From the NCBI RefSeq assembly GCF_017948265.1, contig NZ_CP072852.1, forward strand, positions 434,001 through 498,000: a stretch of DNA of 64,000 nucleotides, in the 5' to 3' direction. A program made the translations under genes and the position numbers. This DNA is from Rhodoferax sp. PAMC 29310 (GTDB lineage: Bacteria > Pseudomonadota > Gammaproteobacteria > Burkholderiales > Burkholderiaceae_C). The notes under the pieces were generated by a model. It saw only the letters and a list, made by a program, of their open reading frames with translations. It was not told where the DNA came from and did not search any database. Positions 5,858-59,536 of this stretch are shown here, in pieces (position 1 is the first letter of the stretch; every line of letters begins with the position of its first letter).

Positions 5858-5904
5858 GGCAGTCCTTTGAGACGGTCGGCCTGTGAATCATTTTGAATGA
5901 AACC

Positions 5905-6030
5905 AGGGCTGCCCAGGCGAACGGCTGATCGCACAGGCCCTATGGCCTTGTGCGGCACGCTCCCCCGTGGTGTTCCCACTTCAGTACTCAAACCCTATTT
6001 GGCCAAGCACCTATCGCCAGTCGCGTACTC
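5905..6030 (-). ncRNA. ZTP (pfl) riboswitch upstream of glyA
   Basis: The minus strand carries the hallmarks of the pfl motif. CGCGACTGGCG (6025-6015) comes first, then GTGGGAACACCACGGGGGA around 5975-5957. A long hairpin with arms GCACAAGGCC and GGGCCTGTGC follows, then CCGTTCGCCTGGGCAGCCC (5924-5906). The GGCG of the first block can pair with the CGCC of the last to form the family's pseudoknot. ZTP riboswitches bind ZMP/ZTP, signals of 10-formyl-tetrahydrofolate shortage, and are known to turn on glyA and folate genes. The last conserved base is about 47 nt before the glyA ATG, and I see no T-run terminator, so control may be at translation initiation. Boundaries are approximate. Confidence 0.88.
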
Positions 6031-6079
6031 GCCGAGTTTAACTGACCATCGCGGCGGTGCGCCGGGTGGTCGGTAGGTG

Positions 6080-18648: not shown

Positions 18649-19335
18649 TTATTTCACCAGGGTTGCAGAGTTAATAAAAATGGGTGTCTTGGGAACATCC
18701 GTCGGAAACGGGCCGCCCGCACCAGTAGGGATGGATTTGATTTTTTGAATCACGTCCATGCCGCTGACTACTTTGCCAAACACCGTGTAGCCAAAAAGCT
18801 GGGGGGCATTGACCAAATTCGAGCGTGGAGTATTTTCGTAGACTTGTCCCTGGTATTCAAACCGGGGAACCGGATCACCCGGTGGAATAGGGGTTGGGTC
18901 CAGAAACGCATTGTCTTTCACGTTAATGAAAAACTGGGCGGTTGCGGACTGTGGGTCGTTGGTGCGAGCCATGGCGAGTGTGCCCACGACGTTTTTGGCG
19001 CCGCCTTTGGCCAGCGCCTCACGCCCTTCGTGAACCACGGGTGGACGAACCTTTTTTTGAACGTATTTGCCGTCAAAACCACCGCCTTGAACCATGAAAT
19101 TTTCAATCACACGGTGAAAAATAGTGCCGTCGTAGTGCTTGTCTTTGACGTATTGCAGGAAGTTCTCCACTGTCTTTGGTGCTTTGTCGGGGTACACCTC
19201 GACCACAAATTCACCCGCCGTGGTGGCAAACTTGACCTTTGGTGCATCCTCTGCAAAGGCTGAACTCGCTATTGAAAGTAGAGCAGTTCCCGCAACAATG
19301 ACGGGCGCAATAGTTCGAAAAGTCTTGTAAATCAT
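18649..19335 (-). CDS. ppiA: Periplasmic peptidyl-prolyl cis-trans isomerase (cyclophilin)
   Basis: This 228-residue cyclophilin starts at the ATG at 19335 and overlaps the upstream gene's stop (TGATG). A Sec signal peptide (residues 1-27) ends at SSAFA before EDAPKVKF. Cyclophilin motifs DGTIFHRVIENFMVQGGGF and ATAQFFINVKDN are intact. The region between them and the C-terminus is longer than in PpiB, with a Pro-rich loop. It should help fold envelope proteins. Upstream is an L,D-transpeptidase gene and downstream ppiB. Confidence 0.94.
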   Translation of the reverse strand: MIYKTFRTIAPVIVAGTALLSIASSAFAEDAPKVKFATTAGEFVVEVYPDKAPKTVENFLQYVKDKHYDGTIFHRVIENFMVQGGGFDGKYVQKKVRPPVVHEGREALAKGGAKNVVGTLAMARTNDPQSATAQFFINVKDNAFLDPTPIPPGDPVPRFEYQGQVYENTPRSNLVNAPQLFGYTVFGKVVSGMDVIQKIKSIPTGAGGPFPTDVPKTPIFINSATLVK

Positions 19336-23226: not shown

Positions 23227-23272
23227 AAAGATCTTTGAATGAAATCAGCTTGTGCCGCCTATTGGGGAAGCA

Positions 23273-23923
23273 ATGGTAGCTATTAAAAGTGTAGCGACTG
23301 ACGCCGCAACTCCCTCCTATTGGGCAGAGGCCTGTAAGCATCTGGTCAAAAAGGACCGGGTCATGAAGCGATTGATTCCACAGTTTGGCGGCGCCTGTCT
23401 GCAAACCCGTGGAGATGCGTTCGTGACTTTGGCGCGCAGCATTGTGGGCCAGCAAATCTCAGTCAAAGCAGCCCAGGCAGTGTGGGACCGATTTGCGGTT
23501 TTGCCGACCCAGATTACCCCGGGTAATGTGCTTAAACTGAAGGTGGACGATATGCGTGGTGCCGGGTTGAGCGCACGCAAGGTAGAGTACCTGGTGGACT
23601 TGGCACTGCATTTTGACAATGGCGCTTTGCATGTGCAGGCGTGGGAAGCCATGAATGACGAGGCCATCATTGACGAGCTGGTCGCGATTCGGGGCATTGG
23701 TCGTTGGACCGCCGAGATGTTTCTGATCTTTCACATGATGCGCCCCAATGTATTGCCTCTTGATGACGTCGGCCTGATAAAAGGCATCAGCCAAAGCTAT
23801 TTTTCAGGTGATGTGGTGAGTCGAAGTGACGCGCGGGAGGTGGCCGCCGCCTGGGCGCCGTATTGCAGTGTGGCGACTTGGTATATTTGGCGCTCGCTGG
23901 ATCCGTTGCCGGTGGCATATTGA
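23273..23923 (+). CDS. DNA-3-methyladenine glycosylase II family (HhH-GPD)
   Basis: The ATG at 23273 has GGGGAAG just upstream and gives 216 residues. Visible are the HhH-GPD features: SIVGQQISVKAA, the helix-hairpin-helix ELVAIRGIGRWTAEMFLIF and the catalytic aspartate region LPLDDVGL. Such enzymes remove alkylated purines from DNA to start base excision repair. There is no N-terminal TATA-like domain as in full-length E. coli AlkA, as is normal for this short subfamily. The first codons (VAIKSVATDA) are written by a partial copy of the dispersed repeat at 23279-23304. Confidence 0.9.
   Translation: MVAIKSVATDAATPSYWAEACKHLVKKDRVMKRLIPQFGGACLQTRGDAFVTLARSIVGQQISVKAAQAVWDRFAVLPTQITPGNVLKLKVDDMRGAGLSARKVEYLVDLALHFDNGALHVQAWEAMNDEAIIDELVAIRGIGRWTAEMFLIFHMMRPNVLPLDDVGLIKGISQSYFSGDVVSRSDAREVAAAWAPYCSVATWYIWRSLDPLPVAY
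23279..23304 (+). repeat. Partial copy of dispersed GCTAT/ATAGC repeat at the start of the alkA-like gene
   Basis: The sequence GCTATTAAAAGTGTAGC, then GACTGACGC, matches the first half of the full copies at 54932 and 59300. It lies within codons 3-11 of the glycosylase gene. Confidence 0.5.
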
Positions 23924-24994: not shown

Positions 24995-25957
24995 GTGACC
25001 GTACCTCTTGCGAGTGCGCTCGCGGCCTTTCAGCCTGAACTGCCGTTGGCTGTTGCCTACAGTGGCGGCGCTGACTCCACCGCCTTGCTGCTCGCCTGTG
25101 CTGAAAAGTGGCCGGGTCAGGTGCATGCAATCCACATCCATCATGGGTTGCAGTCCGCCGCTGACGAATTCGAGGCAAATTGCCGATTGTTTTGCACCCA
25201 CTTGGCTGTGCCCTTAACGGTCAAGCGAGTGAATGCCCGTGCCACAGCGGGGCAAAGCCCGGAAGATGCTGCTCGTCGTGCGCGCTATGGTGCAATTCAG
25301 GCTCTGGCCTTTGATGAGTGTGCAGAAAGTACTATAAAAAGCATAGCTGTTGCGCAGCATGCTGATGATCAGGTTGAAACCATTTTGCTGGCGATGAGTC
25401 GGGGAAGCGGCTTGCCGGGGCTCAGTGGCATGGCCGGTCGCTGGGTTCGCAACGGCCTGACCTTTTATCGACCACTGCTCAAGGTGGGTGGCGCCGATAT
25501 CAGGGAGTGGCTGGCGTCGCGTAGCGTCAATTTCGTCGAAGATCCGACCAACACCGACGAGAGTTTCACGCGCAACCGAATTCGCGCCCGCTTGTTGCCC
25601 GTTCTGCATGCCACATTTCCCCAGTTTCGCGACACATTCACTCGCAGCGCGGTGCATATTGCACAGGCGCAGGCCATTTTGGAGGAGGTGGCCGAACAGG
25701 ATTTGGTCGGTGTAGGTTCGCCACCCGTGATTAAAAAATTACAACAATTGAGCCAACACCGGCAAGCCAATGTGCTTCGGCATTGGTTGGCATTTGCTTT
25801 TGACTCTGTTCCCAGTGCGGCCCAATTGGACGAATTGCAGCGCCAGATCGCACGCTGTGTGACACGGGGGCACCAAATTCGTATCAAGGTGGGCGCCGGG
25901 TTTGTGGAAAGGCGAGGCACTGTTCTGCATTGGTACAATCCCAGAGTTTTGCTCTGA
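24995..25957 (+). CDS. tilS: tRNA(Ile)-lysidine synthetase
   Basis: This 320-residue N-type ATP pyrophosphatase starts at GTG 24995. The P-loop AVAYSGGADSTALLL and the RxxR-type region (GQSPEDAARRARYGAI) are present. TilS adds lysine to C34 of the CAU-anticodon tRNA-Ile so that it reads AUA, an essential step. The protein is shorter than E. coli TilS (432) and lacks the far C-terminal domain. Residues at ESTIKSIAVAQ are encoded by a partial dispersed repeat (25330-25355) inserted in frame between conserved segments. Confidence 0.95.
   Translation: MTVPLASALAAFQPELPLAVAYSGGADSTALLLACAEKWPGQVHAIHIHHGLQSAADEFEANCRLFCTHLAVPLTVKRVNARATAGQSPEDAARRARYGAIQALAFDECAESTIKSIAVAQHADDQVETILLAMSRGSGLPGLSGMAGRWVRNGLTFYRPLLKVGGADIREWLASRSVNFVEDPTNTDESFTRNRIRARLLPVLHATFPQFRDTFTRSAVHIAQAQAILEEVAEQDLVGVGSPPVIKKLQQLSQHRQANVLRHWLAFAFDSVPSAAQLDELQRQIARCVTRGHQIRIKVGAGFVERRGTVLHWYNPRVLL
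25330..25355 (+). repeat. Partial copy of dispersed repeat inside tilS
   Basis: TACTATAAAAAGCATAGC, then TGTTGCGC, matches the hairpin half of the repeat family. It is read in frame as TIKSIAVA and is locally more AT-rich than the surrounding gene. Confidence 0.5.
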
Positions 25958-27290: not shown

Positions 27291-27383
27291 GGAATCGTGA
27301 CCGAGTGGCCGAAGGTGCTCCCCTGCTAAGGGAGTATGGGGTGTAGAGCCTCATCGAGAGTTCGAATCTCTCCGATTCCGCCA
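27291..27383 (+). tRNA. tRNA-Ser (anticodon GCU)
   Basis: This 93-nt gene includes encoded CCA. The acceptor stem is GGAATCG paired with CGATTCC, discriminator G. The anticodon stem-loop CTCCCCTGCTAAGGGAG has anticodon GCT. A long variable arm typical of class II tRNA-Ser is present, and the T arm reads GAGAGTTCGAATCTC. It decodes AGC and AGU. It lies 35 bp after lysC and is followed directly by a strong terminator. Confidence 0.97.
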
Positions 27384-31114: not shown

Positions 31115-32143
31115 ATGAAAAATCGTTCCGGCAGTGGCTTAGCAGAATGCACTCGCCAATACGGAGCGATCATTTCAAAGGGAAAAAAGGTTCTGGCCAT
31201 TGATTTTCCAGTGGGAGGCGATTCTGAATTGATAGCACCCCCTGCTTCACACCCCTGCATTGAGCCAGAAGATGCGGCCCTGCCGAGCAAGGAGTCGGGT
31301 GACTCCCTGTCGGCCTATCTGCGCAATGTGAGGCATACCGCGCTTTTTACGCCTGAACAAGAATTCTTGTTTGAAACTCAGGCCCGCGCCCGTGACTTTG
31401 AGGCCCGCCAGAGCATGATTGAACACAATTTGCGTTTGGTTGTCAGCATTGCCAAGCCTTATTCTGGCCGGGGTGTACCACTGCCTGACCTGATTGAGGA
31501 GGGGAACCTAGGCCTCATGCATGCCATCGACAAGTTCGAGCCAGAGCGCGGCTTTCGCTTCTCAACCTATGCCAGCTGGTGGATTCGACAATCAGTGGAG
31601 CGTGCCCTGATTTATCATGGACGTGCCGTGCGGCTGCCCGTGAATGTAGTTCGTGGTTTGCAGCAAGTTTTGGGTGCACGTCGTGCCCTGGAAAATGACC
31701 CCACATTCAATCAAAGCCGCCCAGGTGGTGTTCAGGCGTTGGACATTGTCGCTTTGTTGGGCCGGGACGCCGCTGAAGTGGCCACGTTGCTCACATTGGC
31801 GGATGGCCCAAAATCTCTGGACGTTGTCCTGGACGTGGCTGGCGCCGGAGAAAGTCTCGGTGACACTTTGGCAGGTGATGCCAGTCAGGAGCCTTCATCC
31901 CTGGTGCAGGCACATGAAGTGGAGCATCTACTGGCGCAATGGATTGGGCTTTTATCCAGTCGTGAAAAAGAGGTACTGGAAGCAAGATTTGGCTTGCATG
32001 ATCTGGAGCCCGAAACCATGGAGGTGCTGAGCCAGCGACTGGAGTTGACGCGCGAGCGCGTCAGGCAGGTTCAAAACGAGGCTCTCGTCAAGCTGAAGCG
32101 CTACCTGGTGTCAAACGGGATTACCGCGCAATCGTTGTTGTAA
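31115..32143 (+). CDS. rpoS: RNA polymerase sigma factor RpoS
   Basis: This 342-residue group 2 sigma70 has region 1.2 ([20 protein letters not shown]), region 2 ([18 protein letters not shown] to [19 protein letters not shown]), region 3 and region 4 ([20 protein letters not shown]). RpoS directs RNA polymerase to stationary-phase and stress genes. The first 50 residues are poorly conserved, and the ribosome site at the chosen ATG is weak. The segment [14 protein letters not shown] may derive from a degraded dispersed repeat. It lies 11 bp after nlpD; in other bacteria the main rpoS promoter lies inside nlpD. Confidence 0.95.
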
Positions 32144-32191
32144 GCCGCTAACCGGTCTCGGCAGACACCGCCGGCCTGAGACAATAGTGAC

Positions 32192-33625
32192 ATGACTGAC
32201 GAAATTCAAATACCAGACAATTTTCCGGCTGACTCACTGTATGTGAAGTCTCTTGATCTTGAGGCGCAAGGTGTCGCCCATCGGGTCGATGGCAAAGTGG
32301 TTTTTATCAAAGGAGCGCTTCCCTTTGAGTGGGTGAGTGCGGTGGTCCATCGCAAGAAGAGCAGTTGGGAGCAGGGCGCTGTCACTGCGATTCACCGTGA
32401 ATCCTCGCAGCGGGTCAAGCCGGGCTGCCCCCACTTTGGGCTGCATGAGGGCGCTTGCGGTGGCTGCAAAATGCAGCATTTACATGTGGGCGCCCAGGTG
32501 GCCGTCAAACAACGGGTGCTGGAAGACAACTTGTGGCATTTGGGTAAAGTGAAGGCCGACATGATTCTGCGGCCCATTGAAGGCCCTGCTTGGGGTTACC
32601 GCTACCGGGCGCGGATTTCGGTGCGAAATGTGCGAAAAAAGGGTACTGTCCTGGTCGGGTTTCATGAGCGTAAGAGCGGCTTCGTGGCGGACATGAGAGA
32701 GTGTCATGTGCTGCCGCCGCACGTGAGCGACCTGCTGCTGCCCTTGCGTGCCTTGATCACCTCCATGGATGCCGTTGACACCTGTCCCCAAATCGAACTC
32801 GCTTGTGGTGACTCGGTGACTGCGTTGGTACTTCGCCATATGGAGGCGCTGAGCGAGGCCGACCGGGCGCGGCTGCGGGCTTTTGCGATTGAACATGCAG
32901 GTGTTCAATGGTGGCTGCAATCGGGGGGGCTGGACACCGTTCAATTGCTGGATGAGGCCGTTGAAGAGTTGAGTTACGACCTGCCAGAATTTGGCATCCA
33001 TATGCCCTTCAAGCCGACTGACTTCACGCAGGTGAATCCCCATATCAACCGGGTTCTGGTGGCTCGGTCCTTGCGGTTGCTGGATGTCAAAAAGAGCGAG
33101 CGCGTGATTGACTGGTTCTGCGGTTTGGGCAACTTCACGCTGCCACTCGCCACGCTGGCAAGAGAGGTGCTGGGAGTGGAGGGCAGCGAGACGCTGGTGG
33201 CACGGTCTCGGGAAAATTATCAGAAAAATACGAGTCAGCGCTCTATTAGATCAGCACTATGTGCTACAAAATTTGTAGCTAGAAACTTGTTTAACATGAC
33301 GCCTGAGCTATTGGTTCAGGACGGTGTTTCTGACAAGTGGTTGGTGGACCCACCACGGGAAGGGGCGTATGCCCTGTTTCAGGCACTGGCAGACCTCCAT
33401 CAGCAAAAGTTGGACCCCATCAATCACCCGCCTGTGGAGGGTGGGCTGGATTGGACACCTCCTAAGCGCATTGTCTACGTTAGTTGCAACCCCGCGACAT
33501 TGGCCCGTGATGCGGGCGTATTGGTGTCACAAGGGGGCTACCGCTGCTCGGCGGCGGGCATGGTCAACATGTTCCCGCACACGGCCCACGTGGAAAGCAT
33601 GGCGGTGTTCGACTTCGTGGAGTGA
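32192..33625 (+). CDS. rlmD: 23S rRNA (uracil-1939-C5)-methyltransferase
   Basis: This 477-residue enzyme has an N-terminal TRAM-like domain and the iron-sulfur cluster cysteines in [19 protein letters not shown]. The SAM domain shows [16 protein letters not shown], and the catalytic loop is [15 protein letters not shown]. It makes m5U1939 in 23S rRNA using SAM. Within the SAM domain, between ENYQKNT and FVARNLF, there is an AT-rich in-frame insert ([13 protein letters not shown]) matching the hairpin half of the dispersed repeat. Confidence 0.95.
33263..33282 (+). repeat. Partial copy of dispersed repeat inside rlmD
   Basis: GCTACAAAATTTGTAGCTAG is a near-perfect small hairpin of the same form as the repeat family's first half. 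Together with the AT-rich bases just upstream it encodes extra residues in a variable loop of the methyltransferase domain. Confidence 0.55.
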
Positions 33626-38758: not shown

Positions 38759-41032
38759 TTAAAACTTCACGTTGAGGGTGAGCTGGGCATTGCGTCCGGA
38801 GCCAGGCACATAGTGGCCGGTGTAGAGCGAGTCTGCGTAGAGTTTGTTGGCCACGTTGCTCACATTGGCTTTCAGCGTGTACCGGTCATTGAATTTGTAT
38901 TCACCCATCACATCCACAGTGGCGTAGTCTGGCGCCAACCAGCCAGGATTGCGGTTAGGGGCTTGTTCGCTGCGAAAGTTAACTCCGGCGCCGAGGCGCA
39001 GTTGCGGGGTCAATTGGTAGGTAGACCACACGGTGCCCGTGTGCACAGGGGTCAGCGACGGGCGCTCACCCGTTCGCTCACCCGCAGTGGCTGTGGCGGC
39101 CGCGACGTCAATGTTGGCGGTGGGCATCCACATATATGAGCCATACACCTCCCATTCATTGGTCAGGCGCCCTGTGATGTCAATTTCGAATCCCACGGTG
39201 TGCCGCTTGCCGGACAGCAACATCGCGGTTGCGGCTGAATCGGGGTCTGTATTGCGTTCGTTGAACTTGGTTGAATGAAACAGCGCCAGCCGGGTGGTGA
39301 AGCGCTTGTCCGCTGTGTCCAGCTTGGCCCCAAATTCAATATTGCGGCTTTGCTCCGGGTCGGTGTTGGCGCTCAAAGCGCTGTAGGAGTAGGTGTCCGC
39401 CGAGGTGTTGAATGAAGTGCCGTATGAGAAATGGTACGAAGTGAGGTCGTTGGGCTGGTACAGCACCCCAAAGCGTTTGCTCCAGTTGGAAATCTTCTGT
39501 TGGTAAGAGGATATGGCGCCCGTTGTGGAGATGGTGTCATACGCGCCGTCCATCGTGTCGTAGCGCAAGCCCGCCAGCACTTTCCACTCGGGGGTGAGGT
39601 ACATCATGTCCTGCAAATAGGCGCCCATATTCTTCGCGTGGAATGCGCTTGACAGACTGAGCACGCGGCTGCCTTCGTCAAATGACACACCGTCGTTGGG
39701 TGTGCCGGCCAAGGTGCTGCGCTGACTTGTTGTGCCACTAGCGCGGTAAACGTTTTTCACTTCGTCGGCAAAGTCGACGCCTGCCAAAATTTCGTGCTTT
39801 AGCCCCAGTGCCATCAGTTTTGTGGAGTATTCACTTTGCAAATAGAGAGAGTTGAGGTCTTGAATTTTGATTCTGGAGCTGCGGTTCAAAACTGTGCGGT
39901 CGCTGAAGTTATCCAGGCCTGTACCATTTGCATTTCGGATCGTCACGGCGCGCTGGTCGCGGTCATAGCTGCCCCGTCGCACTGTGGTTTTGAGCTCGCT
40001 GTCGTCCTGAAAGCGGTGAGTGTGACTGGCCGTCAGGTAGGTGACTTCACCTGCATTGCGGTCACTCGCCAAGCCGTAATACGCGCTGGGGTCCAGGTTG
40101 TTGTTGATGGTGGTGGCAGCGGCAGCGGCGCTGGACGTGGGTTTGATCCACGGCAGCCCATAGTTCATGCCGTTGTTGTTGTCCAAATGGTAGAGACCGA
40201 GTGAAAACTCATCGGCCGTGCCAATGCCAAATCGGTAGGTGGCGGCGATGCCTTTTTTGTCAATGCTGCTACCCGCTCCGTTGTTGTCCGCTTTGGTGGC
40301 CATGGCGTTGATGTGCAGTGCCGCGTCTTCGCCCGTCTTGATGTTGAAGTCGCCCGTGACGCGGCGAAAATTGTGGCTGCCAAGCGTCGTGGACACCTCG
40401 TGTTCATCGATGGCGCGAGGCTGTTTGCTGACTTGATTAACGGCACCGCCCGTGGAGCCCCGTCCAAACAGTATGGAGGCTGAACCACGCAGCAACTCGA
40501 TGCGGTCATTGTTGAAGGTGTCGCGGTCATAAAACGCGGGGTCGCGCAAGCCATCTACAAAGATGTCGCCCGAGGTCGCCAGAGAAAAGCCGCGCAGACG
40601 AATGTCTTCTTCGCCGCCCTCGGCTGCCTGAAACGTCACGCCGGCTGTGTTGTGCAATACGTCTTTCAAGGTGTCCAGATTTCGGTCATCCACGAGCTTT
40701 TCGGTGACCACCGTGACAGATTGGGGAATATCACGCAGTGCCTGGTTGCCCTTGCCCTTGCCCTTGCCCTTGCCCTTGCCAATGCCGGTGGTGGTCGCCC
40801 GCAAGGCATCTTTACCCTCAGACGCTTCTGCCTTTTCCTTGACGATCACCGGTTTGAGCGTCGCGGCGGCGTTTGTATCCACTTGTTGAGCCAATGCGCT
40901 CATTGACCCGGCCAGCAGTGCCGCGCCCAGCGGCAGGATCATGGCCCGAGGTGCTATTGAATGAGCAGCTTTCCCCGCTTTATTGACGGGGGCTATAGCA
41001 TTAATTGCCGGTTTTTTTTTGGATTGATTCAT
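38759..41032 (-). CDS. TonB-dependent siderophore receptor
   Basis: From the ATG at 41032 the protein is 757 residues. It has a long signal sequence (cleavage near SALAQQVD), a plug domain (DIPQSVTVVTEKLVDDRNLD to the VNQVSKQP end) and a 22-strand barrel finishing in phenylalanine (QLTLNVKF). It resembles the Fiu/PiuA catecholate-type class by its piuC neighbour; the ligand is inferred only. Two oddities are visible. A run of Gly-Lys pairs precedes the plug, encoded by a hexamer tandem repeat. Residues 10-25 of the signal region are encoded by a full copy of the dispersed 50-bp repeat. Confidence 0.94.
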   Translation of the reverse strand: MNQSKKKPAINAIAPVNKAGKAAHSIAPRAMILPLGAALLAGSMSALAQQVDTNAAATLKPVIVKEKAEASEGKDALRATTTGIGKGKGKGKGKGNQALRDIPQSVTVVTEKLVDDRNLDTLKDVLHNTAGVTFQAAEGGEEDIRLRGFSLATSGDIFVDGLRDPAFYDRDTFNNDRIELLRGSASILFGRGSTGGAVNQVSKQPRAIDEHEVSTTLGSHNFRRVTGDFNIKTGEDAALHINAMATKADNNGAGSSIDKKGIAATYRFGIGTADEFSLGLYHLDNNNGMNYGLPWIKPTSSAAAAATTINNNLDPSAYYGLASDRNAGEVTYLTASHTHRFQDDSELKTTVRRGSYDRDQRAVTIRNANGTGLDNFSDRTVLNRSSRIKIQDLNSLYLQSEYSTKLMALGLKHEILAGVDFADEVKNVYRASGTTSQRSTLAGTPNDGVSFDEGSRVLSLSSAFHAKNMGAYLQDMMYLTPEWKVLAGLRYDTMDGAYDTISTTGAISSYQQKISNWSKRFGVLYQPNDLTSYHFSYGTSFNTSADTYSYSALSANTDPEQSRNIEFGAKLDTADKRFTTRLALFHSTKFNERNTDPDSAATAMLLSGKRHTVGFEIDITGRLTNEWEVYGSYMWMPTANIDVAAATATAGERTGERPSLTPVHTGTVWSTYQLTPQLRLGAGVNFRSEQAPNRNPGWLAPDYATVDVMGEYKFNDRYTLKANVSNVANKLYADSLYTGHYVPGSGRNAQLTLNVKF
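40746..40780 (-). repeat. Hexanucleotide tandem repeat in the receptor gene
   Basis: Five perfect CCCTTG units plus partial units at both ends (plus-strand reading) encode an alternating Gly-Lys tract just before the plug domain. A gain or loss of units would keep the frame and change only tract length. Confidence 0.85.
40953..41000 (-). repeat. Full copy of dispersed GCTAT/ATAGC repeat in the receptor signal region
   Basis: The plus-strand order GCTATTGAATGAGCAGCT, TTCCCCGCTTTATTGAC, GGGGGCTATAGCA follows the same block order as the copies at 54932 and 59300. It is translated on the minus strand as part of the signal sequence (NAIAPVNKAGKAAHSIAP). Confidence 0.75.
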
Positions 41033-41110
41033 ATTGACAATTGATTCAGAAAGGGGGGGGCTGGCTGAATCCGCAAACGTCAATGAATGGCGCGGGGTGG
41101 CTGGCTATGA

Positions 41111-53581: not shown

Positions 53582-53691
53582 GGTCGAAAGCCTCGATGAG
53601 TATGCTGCAGTGCAACCAAAACCGGAGTTCGGGTTCGGAAATGTGGTCAAATTATAAGTTTCGCCCTGTGTCATCCACTCCCGGAGGGATT

Positions 53692-54918
53692 TTGAAAACC
53701 ATTCGAAAATCTGCCAAATTGGCTAACGTCTGTTACGACATTCGCGGACCAATCATGGACGCGGCTCGCCAGATGGAAGAAGAGGGCCACAAGATCATCA
53801 AGCTCAACATTGGCAATCTGGCCGTGTTTGGTTTCGACAGCCCAGAAGAGATTCAGCAGGACATGATTCGCAACCTGCCCAATTCGGCGGGATATTCGGA
53901 CAGCAAAGGCATCTTTGCGGCGCGCAAGGCTGTCATGCATTACACCCAGCAGCAGGGCATTCAAGGTGTCACGCTGGACGATATTTACCTGGGCAATGGC
54001 GCCAGCGAACTGATTGTCATGGCCACCAACGCCTTGTTGGACGATGGCGACGAGTTGCTGTTGCCGTCACCCGATTACCCGCTTTGGACTGCCGCTACCA
54101 GTCTGTCCGGCGGCGCGCCGGTGCATTACAACTGTGACGAGGCCAATGGCTGGATGCCTGACTTGGCGGACATCCGGGCCAAGATCACCCCGCGCACCAA
54201 AGGCATTGTGGTCATCAACCCCAATAACCCAACGGGCGCTTTGTACTCTGATGATTTGCTCAGTGCCATTGTGGAGATTGCCCGCGAACACGGACTGGTC
54301 ATTTTTGCCGACGAGGTCTATGACAAGGTGTTGTACGACGATGTTCGTCACACGGCCATGGGAAGTTTGTCAGATGACGTGCTGACTTTGACCTTCAACT
54401 CGCTGTCCAAGAGCTATCGTTCCTGCGGTTACCGTTCTGGCTGGATGATTGTGTCGGGCGATAAAAAGCCAGCCAAGGACTACATCGAGGGTTTGAACAT
54501 GCTCTCGAACATGCGCCTATGCTCTAACGTGCCAGGACAGTGGGCCATTCAGACCGCTTTGGGCGGTCATCAAAGCATCAATGAGTTGGTGAATGAGGGC
54601 GGACGCCTGCGTCGCCAGCGCGATTTGGCCTATGAGTTGATCACTGCCATTCCTGGTGTAACGTGCGTCAAACCGAGTGCGGCACTCTACATGTTCCCCA
54701 AGCTGGACGCCACGATGTATCCGATTGCGGACGATCAGGAGTTTTTCCTGGAACTCTTGCAAGAAACCAAGGTCATGCTGGTTCAGGGCACGGGCTTCAA
54801 CTGGCCCAACCCGGACCATTTCCGTATTGTTTTTTTGCCACACGAGGATGACTTGCGCGAAGCCATTGGCCGGGTGGCCAAGTTTCTCGAAAGCTACCGC
54901 AAGCGCCACAGCAATTAA
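53692..54918 (+). CDS. alaA: Alanine/pyruvate-type PLP aminotransferase (AlaA-like)
   Basis: The best start is TTG 53692, placed four bases after a strong GGAGGG, giving 408 residues beginning MKTIRKSAKLANVCYDIRGP as in AlaA proteins. Class I aminotransferase features are VVINPNNPTGALYS, FADEVYDKVLYDD and the PLP-lysine in NSLSKSYRSCGYRSGW. It should transfer amino groups between glutamate and pyruvate. It precedes hom and thrC, a conserved betaproteobacterial order. A frame opening exists further upstream but lacks a ribosome site. Confidence 0.93.
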   Translation: MKTIRKSAKLANVCYDIRGPIMDAARQMEEEGHKIIKLNIGNLAVFGFDSPEEIQQDMIRNLPNSAGYSDSKGIFAARKAVMHYTQQQGIQGVTLDDIYLGNGASELIVMATNALLDDGDELLLPSPDYPLWTAATSLSGGAPVHYNCDEANGWMPDLADIRAKITPRTKGIVVINPNNPTGALYSDDLLSAIVEIAREHGLVIFADEVYDKVLYDDVRHTAMGSLSDDVLTLTFNSLSKSYRSCGYRSGWMIVSGDKKPAKDYIEGLNMLSNMRLCSNVPGQWAIQTALGGHQSINELVNEGGRLRRQRDLAYELITAIPGVTCVKPSAALYMFPKLDATMYPIADDQEFFLELLQETKVMLVQGTGFNWPNPDHFRIVFLPHEDDLREAIGRVAKFLESYRKRHSN

Positions 54919-54931
54919 TCGTCGTGAGAGT

Positions 54932-54980
54932 GCTATTTAAATAATAGCTGCTCCCGCATATTCAATAAGGGCAAATGCCC
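54932..54980 (+). repeat. Full copy of dispersed GCTAT/ATAGC repeat between alaA and hom
   Basis: Blocks in order are GCTATTTAAATAATAGCTG, CTCCCGCATATTCAATAAG and GGCAAATGCCC. The first block is a perfect small hairpin, and the last part a second one. It starts 14 bp after the alaA stop and ends 29 bp before hom, so it would be transcribed in the operon mRNA. Confidence 0.8.
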
Positions 54981-55009
54981 AATTTATCGTCAATTTAGCA
55001 AGAGTATTT

Positions 55010-56332
55010 ATGAAACCGATTCAAGTAGGGCTGTTGGGCATTGGTGTGGTGGGTTCGGGCACATTCAATGTGCTGCGTCGCAACCAGGAAGAAATCATGC
55101 GCCGCGCTGGCCGTGGCATTGAGATCACCATGGTGGCTGATCTGGACGTGGCGCGCGCTCAGAGCTTGGTCGGTGACGGCGTCAAAGTCGTCAACGACGC
55201 ACGCGCAGTCATTGCCAACCCTGACATTGACATCGTGATTGAGTTGATTGGCGGCTACGGCATTGCCAAGACGTTAGTCATGGAAGCCATTGCGGCGGGC
55301 AAGCATGTGGTTACGGCCAACAAGGCCTTGCTGGCCGTGCACGGGACCGAGATTTTTGCAGCGGCGTCCGAAAAGGGCGTGATGGTCGCGTTTGAAGCGG
55401 CCGTGGCCGGTGGCATTCCTATCATCAAGGCCTTGCGCGAAGGCCTGACTGCGAACCGCATTCAATGGCTGGCCGGCATCATCAACGGCACCACCAACTT
55501 CATCCTGTCCGAAATGCGCGATAAGGGACTGGACTTTGATGTCGTGCTCAAACAAGCGCAAGCGCTGGGCTATGCCGAAGCGGACCCTACCTTCGACATT
55601 GAAGGCGTGGACGCGGCGCACAAAGTCACCCTCATGTCGGCCATTGCGTTTGGTATTCCGGTCCAGTTCGAGAAGGCCTATATTGAAGGCATCACCCAAC
55701 TGAGCTCGGTCGACATCAAGTACGCCGAACAGCTCGGTTACCGCATCAAATTGCTCGGCATCACCAAGCGCACTGACGCCGGTGTTGAACTTCGTGTGCA
55801 CCCCAGCTTGGTACCCACCAAGCGTTTGATCGCCAATGTGGAAGGCGCCATGAACGCCGTGGTGGTTCAGGCCGACGCAGTCGGCACCACGCTTTACTAC
55901 GGCAAGGGCGCGGGTTCCGAGCCCACCGCCAGTGCGGTGATTGCGGACCTGGTGGATATCACTCGCCTGCACACCGCAGACGCGGCCCAGCGTGTGCCGC
56001 ATCTGGCGTTCCAGCCCAATGCCATGAGTGATTTGCACATTCTGCCGATGAGCGAAGTGGTCACCAGTTACTACCTGCGTCTGCGCGTGGCTGATGAGGC
56101 TGGCGTGTTGGCCAAAGTGACTGGTTTGCTGGCCGAAGCTGGCATCAGCATCGACGCCATGCTGCAGCGTGAAGCGGATGAAGTGGGTGGTGAGGGCTCG
56201 ACCCAGACTGACATCATCATCCTCACCCACGACTGTGTGGAGTCCAACATGAACGGCGCGCTGGAGCAGATGCAGAAGCTGCCCACGGTGTTGGCGCCCA
56301 TTACCCGCATTCGCAAGGAAGAGTTGGCCTGA
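55010..56332 (+). CDS. hom: Homoserine dehydrogenase
   Basis: This 440-residue protein has an N-terminal Rossmann domain (IQVGLLGIGVVGSGTFNVL) and the catalytic motif EADPTFDIEGVDAAHKVTLM. GKGAGSEPTASAVIADLVD is also present, followed by a C-terminal ACT domain (YYLRLRVADEAGVLAKV). It reduces aspartate semialdehyde to homoserine, and the ACT domain suggests threonine feedback. It ends in a 4-bp ATGA overlap with thrC. Confidence 0.98.
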   Translation: MKPIQVGLLGIGVVGSGTFNVLRRNQEEIMRRAGRGIEITMVADLDVARAQSLVGDGVKVVNDARAVIANPDIDIVIELIGGYGIAKTLVMEAIAAGKHVVTANKALLAVHGTEIFAAASEKGVMVAFEAAVAGGIPIIKALREGLTANRIQWLAGIINGTTNFILSEMRDKGLDFDVVLKQAQALGYAEADPTFDIEGVDAAHKVTLMSAIAFGIPVQFEKAYIEGITQLSSVDIKYAEQLGYRIKLLGITKRTDAGVELRVHPSLVPTKRLIANVEGAMNAVVVQADAVGTTLYYGKGAGSEPTASAVIADLVDITRLHTADAAQRVPHLAFQPNAMSDLHILPMSEVVTSYYLRLRVADEAGVLAKVTGLLAEAGISIDAMLQREADEVGGEGSTQTDIIILTHDCVESNMNGALEQMQKLPTVLAPITRIRKEELA

Positions 56333-57759
56333 TGAACTACTTGTCCACCCGCGGGGAACCGACCCGCCGCCGTTTTTGCGAAATTCTGCTGGAAGGCTTG
56401 GCGCCGGATGGCGGCCTGTATTTGCCGGAGCACTACCCGCAGGTGGACGACGCCACGTTGACCCGCTGGCGCACGGCCTATCAAACACAGGGCTACGCCG
56501 CCTTGGCGTTTGAGGTGTTGTCGCTCTACATTGACGACATTCCTGCTGCCGACTTGAAGCAAATTTGCGACAAAACCTATACCGAAGCGGTGTTTGGCAC
56601 GCGCAAAATTGTGCCTTTGAAAAAGGTCGAAGATGGCCTGTACCTGGAAGCCTTGTCCAACGGCCCCACACTGGCCTTCAAGGACATGGCCATGCAGTTG
56701 CTGGGCAACCTGTTTGAGTACGAGTTGGCCCGCCGTGGCGAAGAGTTGAACATTCTGGGTGCCACCAGCGGCGACACGGGCAGCGCGGCTGAATACGCCA
56801 TGCGGGGCAAAAAAGGCGTGCGTGTCTTCATGACCAGCCCGTTTGGGCGCATGAGCCCGTTTCAGCAAGCGCAAATGTTCAGCCTGATGGACGAAAACAT
56901 CCACAACATCGCGGTGGACGGCGTGTTTGACGACTGCCAAGACATGGTCAAAGCCGTGTCCAACGACTTGGATTTCAAACGCCAGTACAAGATTGGCACC
57001 GTCAACTCCATCAACTGGGCCCGTTTGATGGCCCAGGTGGTGTACTATTTTGCCGGCTACTTCCAGGCGACAACAACCAATGCCGAAAAGGTGAGCTTCA
57101 CTGTGCCCAGCGGCAATTTTGGCAATATCTGCGCCGGCCATGTGGCTCGCATGATGGGGCTGCCGGTGGACAAGCTGGTGGCTGCCACCAACGAAAACGA
57201 CGTGCTGGACGAGTTCTTTCGCACCGGCGTCTACCGTGTGCGCGGCAGTGCCGACACCCATGAAACCTCCAGCCCCTCGATGGACATCTCCAAAGCGTCC
57301 AACTTTGAGCGCTTCATTTTCGATCTGATCGGTCGTGATGGGCCGCGCACACAAGCCTTGTTTGGTGCCGGTCTGGCCAAAGAAGGGCGTTTTGACCTGT
57401 CGGGTGATCCGGCCTTTGCCGAGGCGGCGACGCGTTACGGTTTTGAGAGTGGGAAAAGTGTGCATGCTGACCGGCTGACAACTATCAAGGACGCGTTTGA
57501 GCGCTTTGGCTTGATCATTGATACCCACACCGCTGACGGCGTCAAAGTAGCGCGCGAACACCAGCAAGGGGGCGTGCCCATGATCGTTTTGGAAACGGCG
57601 CTGCCGATCAAGTTTGCCGCCACCATTGTGGAGGCCTTGGGTCGTCAGCCCGATCGTCCGCCCCAGTTTGAAGGCATCGAGGACCTGCCCAAGCGGGTGA
57701 TTCGCATGGTCGCCGATGCTGGCGCCATCAAAGCCTACATCACGCAGTCCTGCACATGA
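56332..57759 (+). CDS. thrC: Threonine synthase
   Basis: This 475-residue PLP enzyme carries the lysine motif SNGPTLAFKDMAMQLLG and the phosphate-binding GATSGDTGSAAEYAM. It converts O-phosphohomoserine to threonine. The N-terminus MNYLSTRGEPTRRRFCEILL is typical of the long proteobacterial class. It follows hom by overlap. The kinase making its substrate (thrB) is not in the window. mobB overlaps its stop by 4 bp, joining amino acid and cofactor genes in one run. Confidence 0.98.
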   Translation: MNYLSTRGEPTRRRFCEILLEGLAPDGGLYLPEHYPQVDDATLTRWRTAYQTQGYAALAFEVLSLYIDDIPAADLKQICDKTYTEAVFGTRKIVPLKKVEDGLYLEALSNGPTLAFKDMAMQLLGNLFEYELARRGEELNILGATSGDTGSAAEYAMRGKKGVRVFMTSPFGRMSPFQQAQMFSLMDENIHNIAVDGVFDDCQDMVKAVSNDLDFKRQYKIGTVNSINWARLMAQVVYYFAGYFQATTTNAEKVSFTVPSGNFGNICAGHVARMMGLPVDKLVAATNENDVLDEFFRTGVYRVRGSADTHETSSPSMDISKASNFERFIFDLIGRDGPRTQALFGAGLAKEGRFDLSGDPAFAEAATRYGFESGKSVHADRLTTIKDAFERFGLIIDTHTADGVKVAREHQQGGVPMIVLETALPIKFAATIVEALGRQPDRPPQFEGIEDLPKRVIRMVADAGAIKAYITQSCT

Positions 57760-58289
57760 AGGTGGTTTGCATTGCCGGTTACTCCGGTGCGGGCAAGACG
57801 CGCTTGATTGAACGTTTGATACCCGCGCTCCATGCCCGTGGGCAGCGGGTGTCGGTGGTCAAGCATGCGCACCACCGCTTTGACATTGACCACGCCGGCA
57901 AAGACTCCTTTCGCCATCGCGAGGCCGGTGCGTTTGAGGTGGTGGTAGCCTCGGATCAGCGTTTGGCGCTGATGCGGGAATTTGAGAAAACCGTCGAGTT
58001 GACCGTTCACCAGATGATTGCCGAGTTGAGCCCCGTTGCCGACTGGGTGCTGGTGGAAGGCTTCAGAGATTGCGATTTGCAGAAAATTGAGGTCTGGCGC
58101 CATTTGAGTGAGAAGCCCGCGCGCTACATGGATGACGATTTCATCGTCGCCGTGGCCACTGACTCACCCGAGGCCTTGCCACAGGCGACCCAGCGGCCCG
58201 TGCTGAACCTCAATAGTGCCGATGAAGTGGCTGACTGGCTTCAGGCCAGCGGTGACCGGTTCGACTACCGCCCGGAGATTTACCAATGA
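57756..58289 (+). CDS. mobB: Molybdopterin-guanine dinucleotide biosynthesis protein MobB
   Basis: This 177-residue P-loop GTPase has Walker A IAGYSGAGKTRLIERLIP and the MobB signature VSVVKHAHHRFDIDHAGKDS with WVLVEGFRD. It assists attachment of GMP to molybdopterin. The ATG overlaps the thrC stop and its own stop overlaps moeA, so translation is chained from thrC through moeA. Confidence 0.95.
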   Translation: MKVVCIAGYSGAGKTRLIERLIPALHARGQRVSVVKHAHHRFDIDHAGKDSFRHREAGAFEVVVASDQRLALMREFEKTVELTVHQMIAELSPVADWVLVEGFRDCDLQKIEVWRHLSEKPARYMDDDFIVAVATDSPEALPQATQRPVLNLNSADEVADWLQASGDRFDYRPEIYQ

Positions 58290-59536
58290 ACGCCCTGCGC
58301 CCCCCCCGTGCCCCCCTGAAGCCTCTCGACGACGCCCTGATCGAGCTACTTGGGTTTGCCACTGCTTTGAGCGCGGTGGAGTGGGTTTCTACCTTTGATG
58401 CGGACGGCCGGGCGCTGGCGCAAGACTTTGTATCGGGTCTTCAGGTACCACCTCAAGACAACAGCTCCATGGACGGCTATGCCGTTCGCCGCGCTGATGT
58501 GGTGCAGGCCAATGGCCAAGCCTTGTCTGTGTCACAGCGCATCGCCGCAGGCACCGCCGGCACAGAATTGGCGCCGATGACCGTGGCCCGAATCTTCACG
58601 GGTGCGCCCATTCCTGCTGGGGCCGACGCAGTCGTCATGCAGGAAGATTGCGAGCTGACCAAGACCGACACCGGCGACACCGTCCGGCTGGCGGGCGTGC
58701 CGGATTTGGGGCAGTGGATTCGCCGGGCCGGCGAGGATGTCACCCAAGGCGCCGTAGTGCTCTCAAAAGGAGAGCGTTTGACGCCGGCTTCGATTGGGCT
58801 AGCGGCCAGTATTGGCTTGCATCGTTTGTCCGTGGTGCGCCGCCCTAAGGTGGCCTTGTTTTCCACGGGCGACGAGTTAGTTATGCCAGGTGACGTGGCG
58901 CCCGAGGCGATGAAGCCGGGCGCCATCTACAACTCCAATCGCTTCTTTCTGCGGTCGCTGCTGGTGCGTCTTGGTTGTGAGGTCACCGACCTGGGCATCG
59001 TGCCCGACCGACTCGATGCCACGCAGGATGCTCTGCGCGCTGCCGCGCAAGACCACGACTTGATTCTGACTAGCGGCGGGGTGTCGGTCGGCGAAGAAGA
59101 CCACATCAAACCCGCCGTTCAGTCACTGGGGTCGCTTGATTTGTGGCAAATCGCCATCAAACCCGGCAAACCCTTTGCCTATGGGAAGGTGCAGGGCGCG
59201 CACTTCATTGGCCTGCCCGGCAACCCCGTGTCCAGCTTTGTGACCTTCTTGCTACTGGTGCGTCCGTTTCTCTTGCGGCTACAGGGTGTCTCGGATGTCG
59301 CTATGAAATCAGTAGCTATCCCCGCTCATTTCACTTGGGCTAGAGCCGATAAACGTCGTGAATTCTTGCGGGTTCACCGCAATGCGGCCGGCGGGCTTGA
59401 TTTGTTTTCCAACCAGAGTTCTGGCGTGTTGACCTCTGCAGTATGGGGTGATGGCTTGGTAGACAACCCCGCGGGTCAGGTCATCCAGGCGGGCGATATG
59501 GTGCGCTTTATCTCTTTTTCGGAGTTGTTGGCATGA
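58286..59536 (+). CDS. moeA: Molybdopterin molybdenumtransferase MoeA
   Basis: This 416-residue MoeA has QDNSSMDGYAVRRAD, IFTGAPIPAGADAVVMQED, FSTGDELV, LILTSGGVSVGEEDH and GLPGNPVSSFVTFLL. It inserts molybdate into adenylylated molybdopterin. In the C-terminal beta-barrel domain, residues VAMKSVAIPAHFTWAR are encoded by a full copy of the dispersed 50-bp repeat (59300-59347), an in-frame addition or replacement. It is followed by moaD with a 4-bp overlap. Confidence 0.96.
   Translation: MNALRPPRAPLKPLDDALIELLGFATALSAVEWVSTFDADGRALAQDFVSGLQVPPQDNSSMDGYAVRRADVVQANGQALSVSQRIAAGTAGTELAPMTVARIFTGAPIPAGADAVVMQEDCELTKTDTGDTVRLAGVPDLGQWIRRAGEDVTQGAVVLSKGERLTPASIGLAASIGLHRLSVVRRPKVALFSTGDELVMPGDVAPEAMKPGAIYNSNRFFLRSLLVRLGCEVTDLGIVPDRLDATQDALRAAAQDHDLILTSGGVSVGEEDHIKPAVQSLGSLDLWQIAIKPGKPFAYGKVQGAHFIGLPGNPVSSFVTFLLLVRPFLLRLQGVSDVAMKSVAIPAHFTWARADKRREFLRVHRNAAGGLDLFSNQSSGVLTSAVWGDGLVDNPAGQVIQAGDMVRFISFSELLA
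59300..59347 (+). repeat. Full copy of dispersed GCTAT/ATAGC repeat inside moeA
   Basis: Blocks are GCTATGAAATCAGTAGCT, ATCCCCGCTCATTTCACTT and GGGCTAGAGCC, in the same order and spacing as the intergenic copy at 54932. Here it is translated without a stop. Confidence 0.8.

Follow-up and report, generated by a model that had tools for sequence, protein, structure and literature searches.

A dispersed DNA motif of about 66 bp in Comamonadaceae genomes as a possible uptake-signal-like tag

Copies of the repeat in the 64-kb window

The window analysed here, 64,000 nt of Rhodoferax sp. PAMC 29310 (contig NZ_CP072852.1, positions 434,001 to 498,000), carries copies of a dispersed repeat that occurs both between genes and within coding sequences (CDSs). 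An earlier note on this DNA had described a family of hairpin repeats of about 50 bp with three full copies. All three are present at the places given there and with the order of blocks described; the family is real, but its unit is longer, about 66 bp. With R1, a sequence-only profile built from 24 copies of the strain's own genome (G000) picked by pattern, five full copies of this length were detected (E 2e-15 to 2e-5), those at 19266 and 23230–23297 being additional to the three listed before. The copy at 54931 is itself among the 24 (as L003), hence its score is partly by construction, while the other four window copies are outside the model. Open reading frames (ORFs) are given by their window coordinates:

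19266..19333, plus strand: full copy inside a minus-strand CDS (codon-score gene caller); R1 23.9 bits, E 2.5e-6; none of the relatives retrieved spans this site
23230..23297, minus strand: full copy across a gene edge, covering the supposed half-copy at the start of an alkA-like gene; R1 21.1 bits, E 1.9e-5
25285..25350, minus strand: weak, doubtful copy in the tilS region (ORF 24995–25957), antisense; 10.2 bits, E 0.043
40952..41017, plus strand: full copy in the 5′ part of the minus-strand ORF 38759–41083 (TonB receptor), antisense, CDS by codon-score gene caller; R1 24.6 bits, E 1.5e-6
54931..54996, plus strand: full copy in the spacer between ORFs 53596–54918 and 55010–56332 (alaA, hom); R1 52.8 bits, E 2.1e-15
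59298..59363, plus strand: full copy inside moeA (ORF 58286–59536), sense; R1 33.0 bits, E 3.5e-9

The placement of copies in coding or intergenic DNA rests on our own codon-score gene caller. Among the gene names, MoeA and, via its homologue in genome G373, TilS were checked here; all others are those of the earlier note. The motif GCTATN8TAGC matched the window four times (two of the matches being one palindrome on both strands) vs a mean of 0.05 in shuffled sequence, and the alaA-hom spacer contained a scored copy in 10 of the 19 congeners placed. Three genes had also been said to contain half-copies. The one at the alkA-like start is there, but it overlaps the full copy at 23230–23297 rather than being half of one. 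The one in tilS is weak, and relatives hold a better motif at the same site. For rlmD, the pieces found within 31115–33625 (the possible place of this gene, its name being unchecked) had E values of 4.1 and 6.5, i.e., chance level.

Copy number and taxonomic distribution

In the own genome, the pattern GCTATN8TAGCTNCYCNCGC (at most one mismatch) had 86 matches vs a single match for the reversed pattern, and R1 detected at least 150 copies: of 1468 candidates 150 were scored, and all of these matched. In a species-level collection, 18 stretches contained an exact 38-base pattern, and the titles of all 18 records name a Comamonadaceae bacterium, Acidovorax, Rhodoferax, Polaromonas, Curvibacter or Hylemonella. 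Ten whole genomes selected for matching held 79 to 367 copies each of the pattern GCTATN8TAGCTNCYYNCGC (at most one mismatch), among them Hylemonella sp. (79), Acidovorax radicis N35 (113), Rhodoferax antarcticus (124), Curvibacter sp. GWA2_63_95 (337) and Polaromonas sp. P2-4 (367), with 0–2 matches in the reversed-pattern controls.

Among 299 genomes of the family, 131 had at least one match and 70 at least ten (tally), with a maximum of 589 in G123 and mostly 0–2 elsewhere; these counts are lower bounds because the pattern favours some dialects. The reversed controls mostly gave 0–3 matches, with the exception of G234 (11 control vs 9 real matches). Forward and reverse counts were alike in the high-copy genomes and far above the controls. 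At the genus level, 17 of 36 genomes had at least 84 R1 matches and seven had none (tally), and some genomes with many copies have close relatives nearly free of the motif. R1 had no match (E 0.01, stricter filters) in any of 24 genomes that each stand for a different family of the order outside this one. The association with Comamonadaceae that had been proposed from the window is thereby upheld.

With one dialect copy as the query, 1 of 72,556 plasmid records matched, which is a weak test because other dialects would be missed. This lone match, NZ_CP019241 of Rhodoferax antarcticus (L340, 31.9 kb), contains the motif in three places. Nine stretches of viral contigs (L330–L338) matched one exact pattern and contained 10 profile copies (E below 1e-6).

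Motif anatomy and dialects

The element consists of a conserved block, ATAGCT-N-C-Y-C/T, and a core specific to the lineage, with A/T tracts in a constant register on either side; in some dialects this core is nearly palindromic. Strong conservation at positions 14–26 and lineage specificity at positions 27–41 were seen in G123 (39 copies) and G074 (22 copies). Positions 8–10 and 52–53 were A/T in 95–100% of these copies, with A and T interchangeable, next to nearly free positions 6–7, and A/T enrichment was present also at −1 to 0 and 62–63. In our reading of these profiles, the A/T tracts on either side of the core, whose centre is near position 32, would be spaced by roughly one turn of the helix.

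Dialect profiles were rebuilt from their own hits and had 0 matches at E 0.01 on reversed sequence. They reached 74 bits in G123 (88 copies in 416 kb), 50 bits in G373 (68 copies in 340 kb) and 61 bits in G074 (25 copies in 100 kb). The half-sites of the core change together between dialects, with GCGCTTG..CAAGCGC in G074 and GCCCTTT..ATAAGGGC in G373, a joint change that in our view reflects recognition of linear DNA, with a symmetric protein as the possible reader.

The hairpin structure proposed earlier is not supported, as the pairing of its arms is not kept copy by copy. Position 1 is A in 28% of the G123 copies while position 17 is constantly C, so that the first hairpin is often open, and no stem pair was among the top covarying pairs within genomes. 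Pairing may still occur in the core, since invariant positions cannot covary. No terminal inverted repeat was found in the profiles. A folded hairpin or RNA is disfavoured by the uncompensated variation of the arms, the missing top stem pair and the strand symmetry, and the copies have the appearance of a linear motif in double-stranded DNA, about 66 bp long, rather than of a folded hairpin. The alaA-hom spacer of G019 and G016 (L189, L190), unscored by R1, contains a sequence akin to the element but diverged, in which the changes in the stem match (GCCCAATAGGC vs GTCCAATGGAC); it is possibly another dialect, and the matching changes are a hint that pairing may matter there.

Placement, codon usage and spacing

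About a third of the copies lie inside CDSs (31/88 in G123, 27/68 in G373 and 8/25 in G074; 66 in total), as the description of a family dispersed both in genes and between them had implied, and the density is higher in intergenic DNA. With 27 coding copies in sense and 39 in antisense orientation there was no clear strand preference, but each strand had a preferred frame: 20 of the 27 sense copies were in phase 0 and 31 of the 39 antisense copies in phase 1. A third frame contains a stop codon. Codon adaptiveness inside the coding copies was 0.34, 0.35 and 0.23 in the three genomes vs 0.67 elsewhere in these genes, values as low as these being reached by 0 of 300 random draws in each genome. 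Among the intergenic copies, 16/40 in G123, 9/28 in G373 and 3/14 in G074 were located between convergent genes.

The copies of G123 are spaced more evenly than random (coefficient of variation 0.75; 0.2% of simulations as low). Nine proteins were scanned in the longest element-free stretch of each of two genomes: in G123 it contains core genes, and in G373, where it measures 26.7 kb, a phage integrase and a minor tail protein (L207, 9551–10720 and 14628–17261). Any depletion of the motif in mobile DNA is thus anecdotal.

Origin of copies by substitution and by insertion

With the own moeA as query, the site measured exactly 66 nt in all 20 congeneric orthologues placed, nine of which carried a scored motif (12–30 bits) and eleven none. 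At this site 29 congeneric proteins align gap-free, and the length differences between E. coli MoeA and that of the window are of up to 3 residues, i.e., there is no gap of 22 residues. The tilS site was 66 nt long in 11 of 13 relatives, motif present or not, and several of them carried a better motif than the window. Since moeA and tilS orthologues keep the length of the segment without the motif, the proposal that these segments are lineage-specific insertions which add peptides in frame is contradicted; the residues under the motif in the window's moeA are ancestral. Such an insertion does occur in the moeA of G123 (see below), and the interpretation of the family as inserted hairpins is partly supported in this sense.

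The site of the copy at G373:254520 likewise had 66 nt in 9 of 11 relatives. At the 23230–23297 site 67–90 nt were found in seven relatives and 19–30 nt in three, and spacers without the element were often shorter. Two closely related genomes, G373 and G004, could be compared over 148 kb of alignment at about 93% identity, with three elements on each side having no syntenic match. All 14 placeable G373 elements and 12 of the 14 placeable G004 elements had a counterpart. In the two G004 elements without one, the 66 nt were kept, with 7 and 9 substitutions and no indel.

A spanning homologue was available for 20 of the 66 coding copies, of which four had only the close relative G004, leaving 16 informative copies. 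Ten of these were classed as in place (eight in G373, two in G074), two as insertion-like (moeA of G123 and G373:241288), and four as unclear (three in G123, one in G373). Near the site, TruB of G123 is 4 residues and TilS of G373 about 6 residues longer than the E. coli protein, too few for insertions of 22 residues. In-place build-up and gains of whole units were both seen, so copies arise in either way, perhaps in proportions that vary between genomes.

A possible DNA-uptake-signal-like tag

The explanation we tentatively favour, at close to an even chance, is that the element is a linear double-stranded recognition motif, a tag with dialects resembling DNA uptake signals, which would be kept by a drive toward the consensus. 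A bolder version, to which we give slightly less credence, is that it constitutes an independent third DNA self-recognition system, in the Comamonadaceae, with a long two-sided 66-bp tag, dialects, a putative receptor, rewriting of codons in place, and gains and losses between close relatives. A process that favours alleles nearer to the consensus of the lineage, most likely biased uptake of DNA during natural transformation, would keep up to hundreds of copies in a genome. A pilus-linked receptor would prefer DNA bearing the tag, so that tagged alleles would enter and recombine at a higher rate; with this bias tags would form in place by substitution, and a rare insertion of a whole unit could spread too. 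Uptake bias in transformation is a known drive of this kind. We favour a drive because a mobile element alone fails to explain the in-place build-up and the constrained A/T columns, whereas point mutation alone fails to explain the gains of whole units; a drive toward the tag would account for both. The reading also draws on the dialects, the A/T-only columns beside nearly free ones, the patchy abundance among close relatives, the lack of strand preference and the poor codons of coding copies, the stable positions between G373 and G004, and the even spacing in G123.

Sequence-selective transformation published for other Comamonadaceae fits this reading. Acidovorax temperans, A. facilis and Verminephrobacter eiseniae were transformable, A. 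defluvii and A. delafieldii not detectably; A. temperans was transformed by DNA of its own species only, competition with salmon sperm DNA pointed to selective binding, and transformation was strongly reduced in pilus mutants of V. eiseniae (PMC4212676). The passages of that study on transformation name no uptake sequence.

Several observations weigh against an uptake tag. ComEC and GspH minor pilins, present in 294 and 286 of the 299 family genomes, do not track copy number and, being near universal, were rejected as discriminators. The length of 66 bp and the 50–74 bits far exceed those of known uptake tags, and the density of one per 4–5 kb is below theirs. The V. eiseniae plasmid pVEIS01 contains no motif in 31 kb, and the spacing in G373 is not even (coefficient of variation 1.01). 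Of 137 copies in the own genome (13 near a skew boundary excluded), 87 lie opposite to the strand of positive GC skew (tally), with a run of 11 minus copies to one plus copy in the first 230 kb; such a weak replication-strand bias is not predicted for an uptake tag. In the core of G373 there is a weak summed excess of pairing on the diagonals i+j = 65 (0.40, first in rank) and 64 (0.34, third). None of the four informative G123 copies fell into the in-place class, and the G123 moeA copy is a clear in-frame insertion, with 30 residues vs 3 in E. coli. Finally, one gene junction measures 63–66 nt in five congeners vs 0–1 nt in twelve (four others not placed); TTCAT-like ends repeat at this gain, but the start and stop codon there must persist anyway.

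Alternative explanations

The G123 moeA insertion and the presence or absence at the gene junction, together with the shorter spacers where the element is missing, are what would be expected of a miniature mobile element, akin to miniature inverted-repeat transposable elements or repetitive extragenic palindromes (REPs), that spread by insertion and later diverged under some constraint. A match to the transposase domain Y1_Tnp (PF01797) is also commoner in high-copy genomes (62/70 vs 160/229; tally). We nevertheless consider this origin unlikely in view of the in-place copies at conserved protein positions, the finding that no element which could be placed differs in position between G373 and G004, and the A/T columns constrained beside free neighbours. 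Mobilisation by a REP-associated tyrosine transposase (RAYT), which the earlier note had suggested searching for, was rejected as a requirement by a search of the own genome and the 299 family genomes for PF01797, the one transposase family covered: 8 of the 70 high-copy genomes had no match, among them G199, in which the pattern matched 212 times. The single Y1_Tnp locus of the own genome (L079, gene at 1384–2169) has no element in the 3.3 kb covered. Across the family, where 222 of 299 genomes have a match, one such Y1_Tnp gene is found again and again, with similar length and score. In the high-copy genome G074 there are 14 Y1_Tnp matches, and several of them score the same, as would a recently active insertion sequence.

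Slightly less probable still is a binding site of a lineage-specific, probably dimeric protein for chromosome organisation, recombination or replication, maintained by selection on the number and spacing of sites and not by uptake. The near-palindromic core flanked by A/T tracts, the even spacing in G123 and the strand bias of the own genome would suit such a protein; a copy number ranging from none to at least 84 within one genus and the dialects differing between genera would not, and no candidate protein was found among the families searched, no search having been made beyond those. A transcription terminator or structured RNA that is common by happenstance is very improbable: many intergenic copies do lie between convergent genes and two motif-free genomes carry other hairpin-like spacers at the alaA-hom place, but inside genes there is no sense-strand preference, the arms vary without matching changes, and an Rfam gathering scan of the window matched none of the repeat copies, only a tRNA and a ZMP/ZTP riboswitch.

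Comparison with known systems and earlier reports

Like the DNA uptake sequences (DUS) of Neisseriaceae and the uptake signal sequences (USS) of Pasteurellaceae, the element is very abundant on both strands and in coding as well as non-coding DNA. AT tracts beside the core are found in USS and likewise in the Comamonadaceae element. In contrast to DUS and USS (about 9–12 bp), it is 66 bp long and two-sided, has a lower density and was gained in some cases as a whole unit. Both origin by point substitution, which characterises uptake signals, and origin by insertion were observed. Lineage-specific dialects are a further feature in common with DUS, as described in PMC3630211.

With REP/RAYT systems the element shares its short dispersed form, the dyad symmetry and the lineage-specific variants; it differs from them in that no RAYT is needed, about a third of the copies are within CDSs and not extragenic, and copies build up in place. 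Rickettsia palindromic elements occur in frame in protein genes, and the moeA insertion of G123 resembles them, but outside G123 most of the informative coding copies are not insertions. The beta-proteobacterial repeat element (BRE) is similarly found in Bordetella and several Comamonadaceae, with some copies within coding sequences (PMC3110155). By its description there, and not by its sequence, it is set apart in length (75–91 bp for full-length Bordetella copies), GC content (69%) and copy number (at most 29 per genome, partly tandem).

Pieces of the element may have been reported before as pairs of motifs (PMC5217627): GCTTAT(N)5AAGCG in Acidovorax ebreus, with 114 copies of which 107 are intergenic, and ATAGCT(N)22CAAAAG in Polaromonas naphthalenivorans, with 125 copies of which 101 are intergenic and 18 in genes. 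As presented in that report, both pairs are frequent between convergent genes, 81–94% intergenic, and given without function or full element, and Rhodoferax ferrireducens T118 had the most motif pairs (140) among the genomes covered. The A. ebreus pair fits the core GCTTATTNNATAAGCG of copies found here and is probably a piece of the 66-bp element. The P. naphthalenivorans pair is perhaps another piece, the likeness consisting in the shared block ATAGCT. Our literature searches returned no title on the full element of about 66 bp, and nothing for "DNA uptake sequence" with Comamonadaceae; the texts of PMC12616744 and PMC3733652, searched for the family and genus names, contained none of these.

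If the element does serve uptake, this could be the reason why A. temperans was not transformed by DNA from other species of Acidovorax in published assays, and the Comamonadaceae would be a third family with genomic uptake tags beside the two known to us. Congeners with none vs hundreds of copies would then offer a natural experiment for finding the receptor. Regardless of such a function, the motif is abundant, accompanies poor codons in conserved genes and may be misread as hairpin repeats or inserted peptides.

Other features of the window

The ZMP/ZTP riboswitch lies at 5904–6034 on the minus strand (51.4 bits, above the Rfam gathering score), and the tRNA gene identified by Rfam at 27291–27380 on the plus strand.

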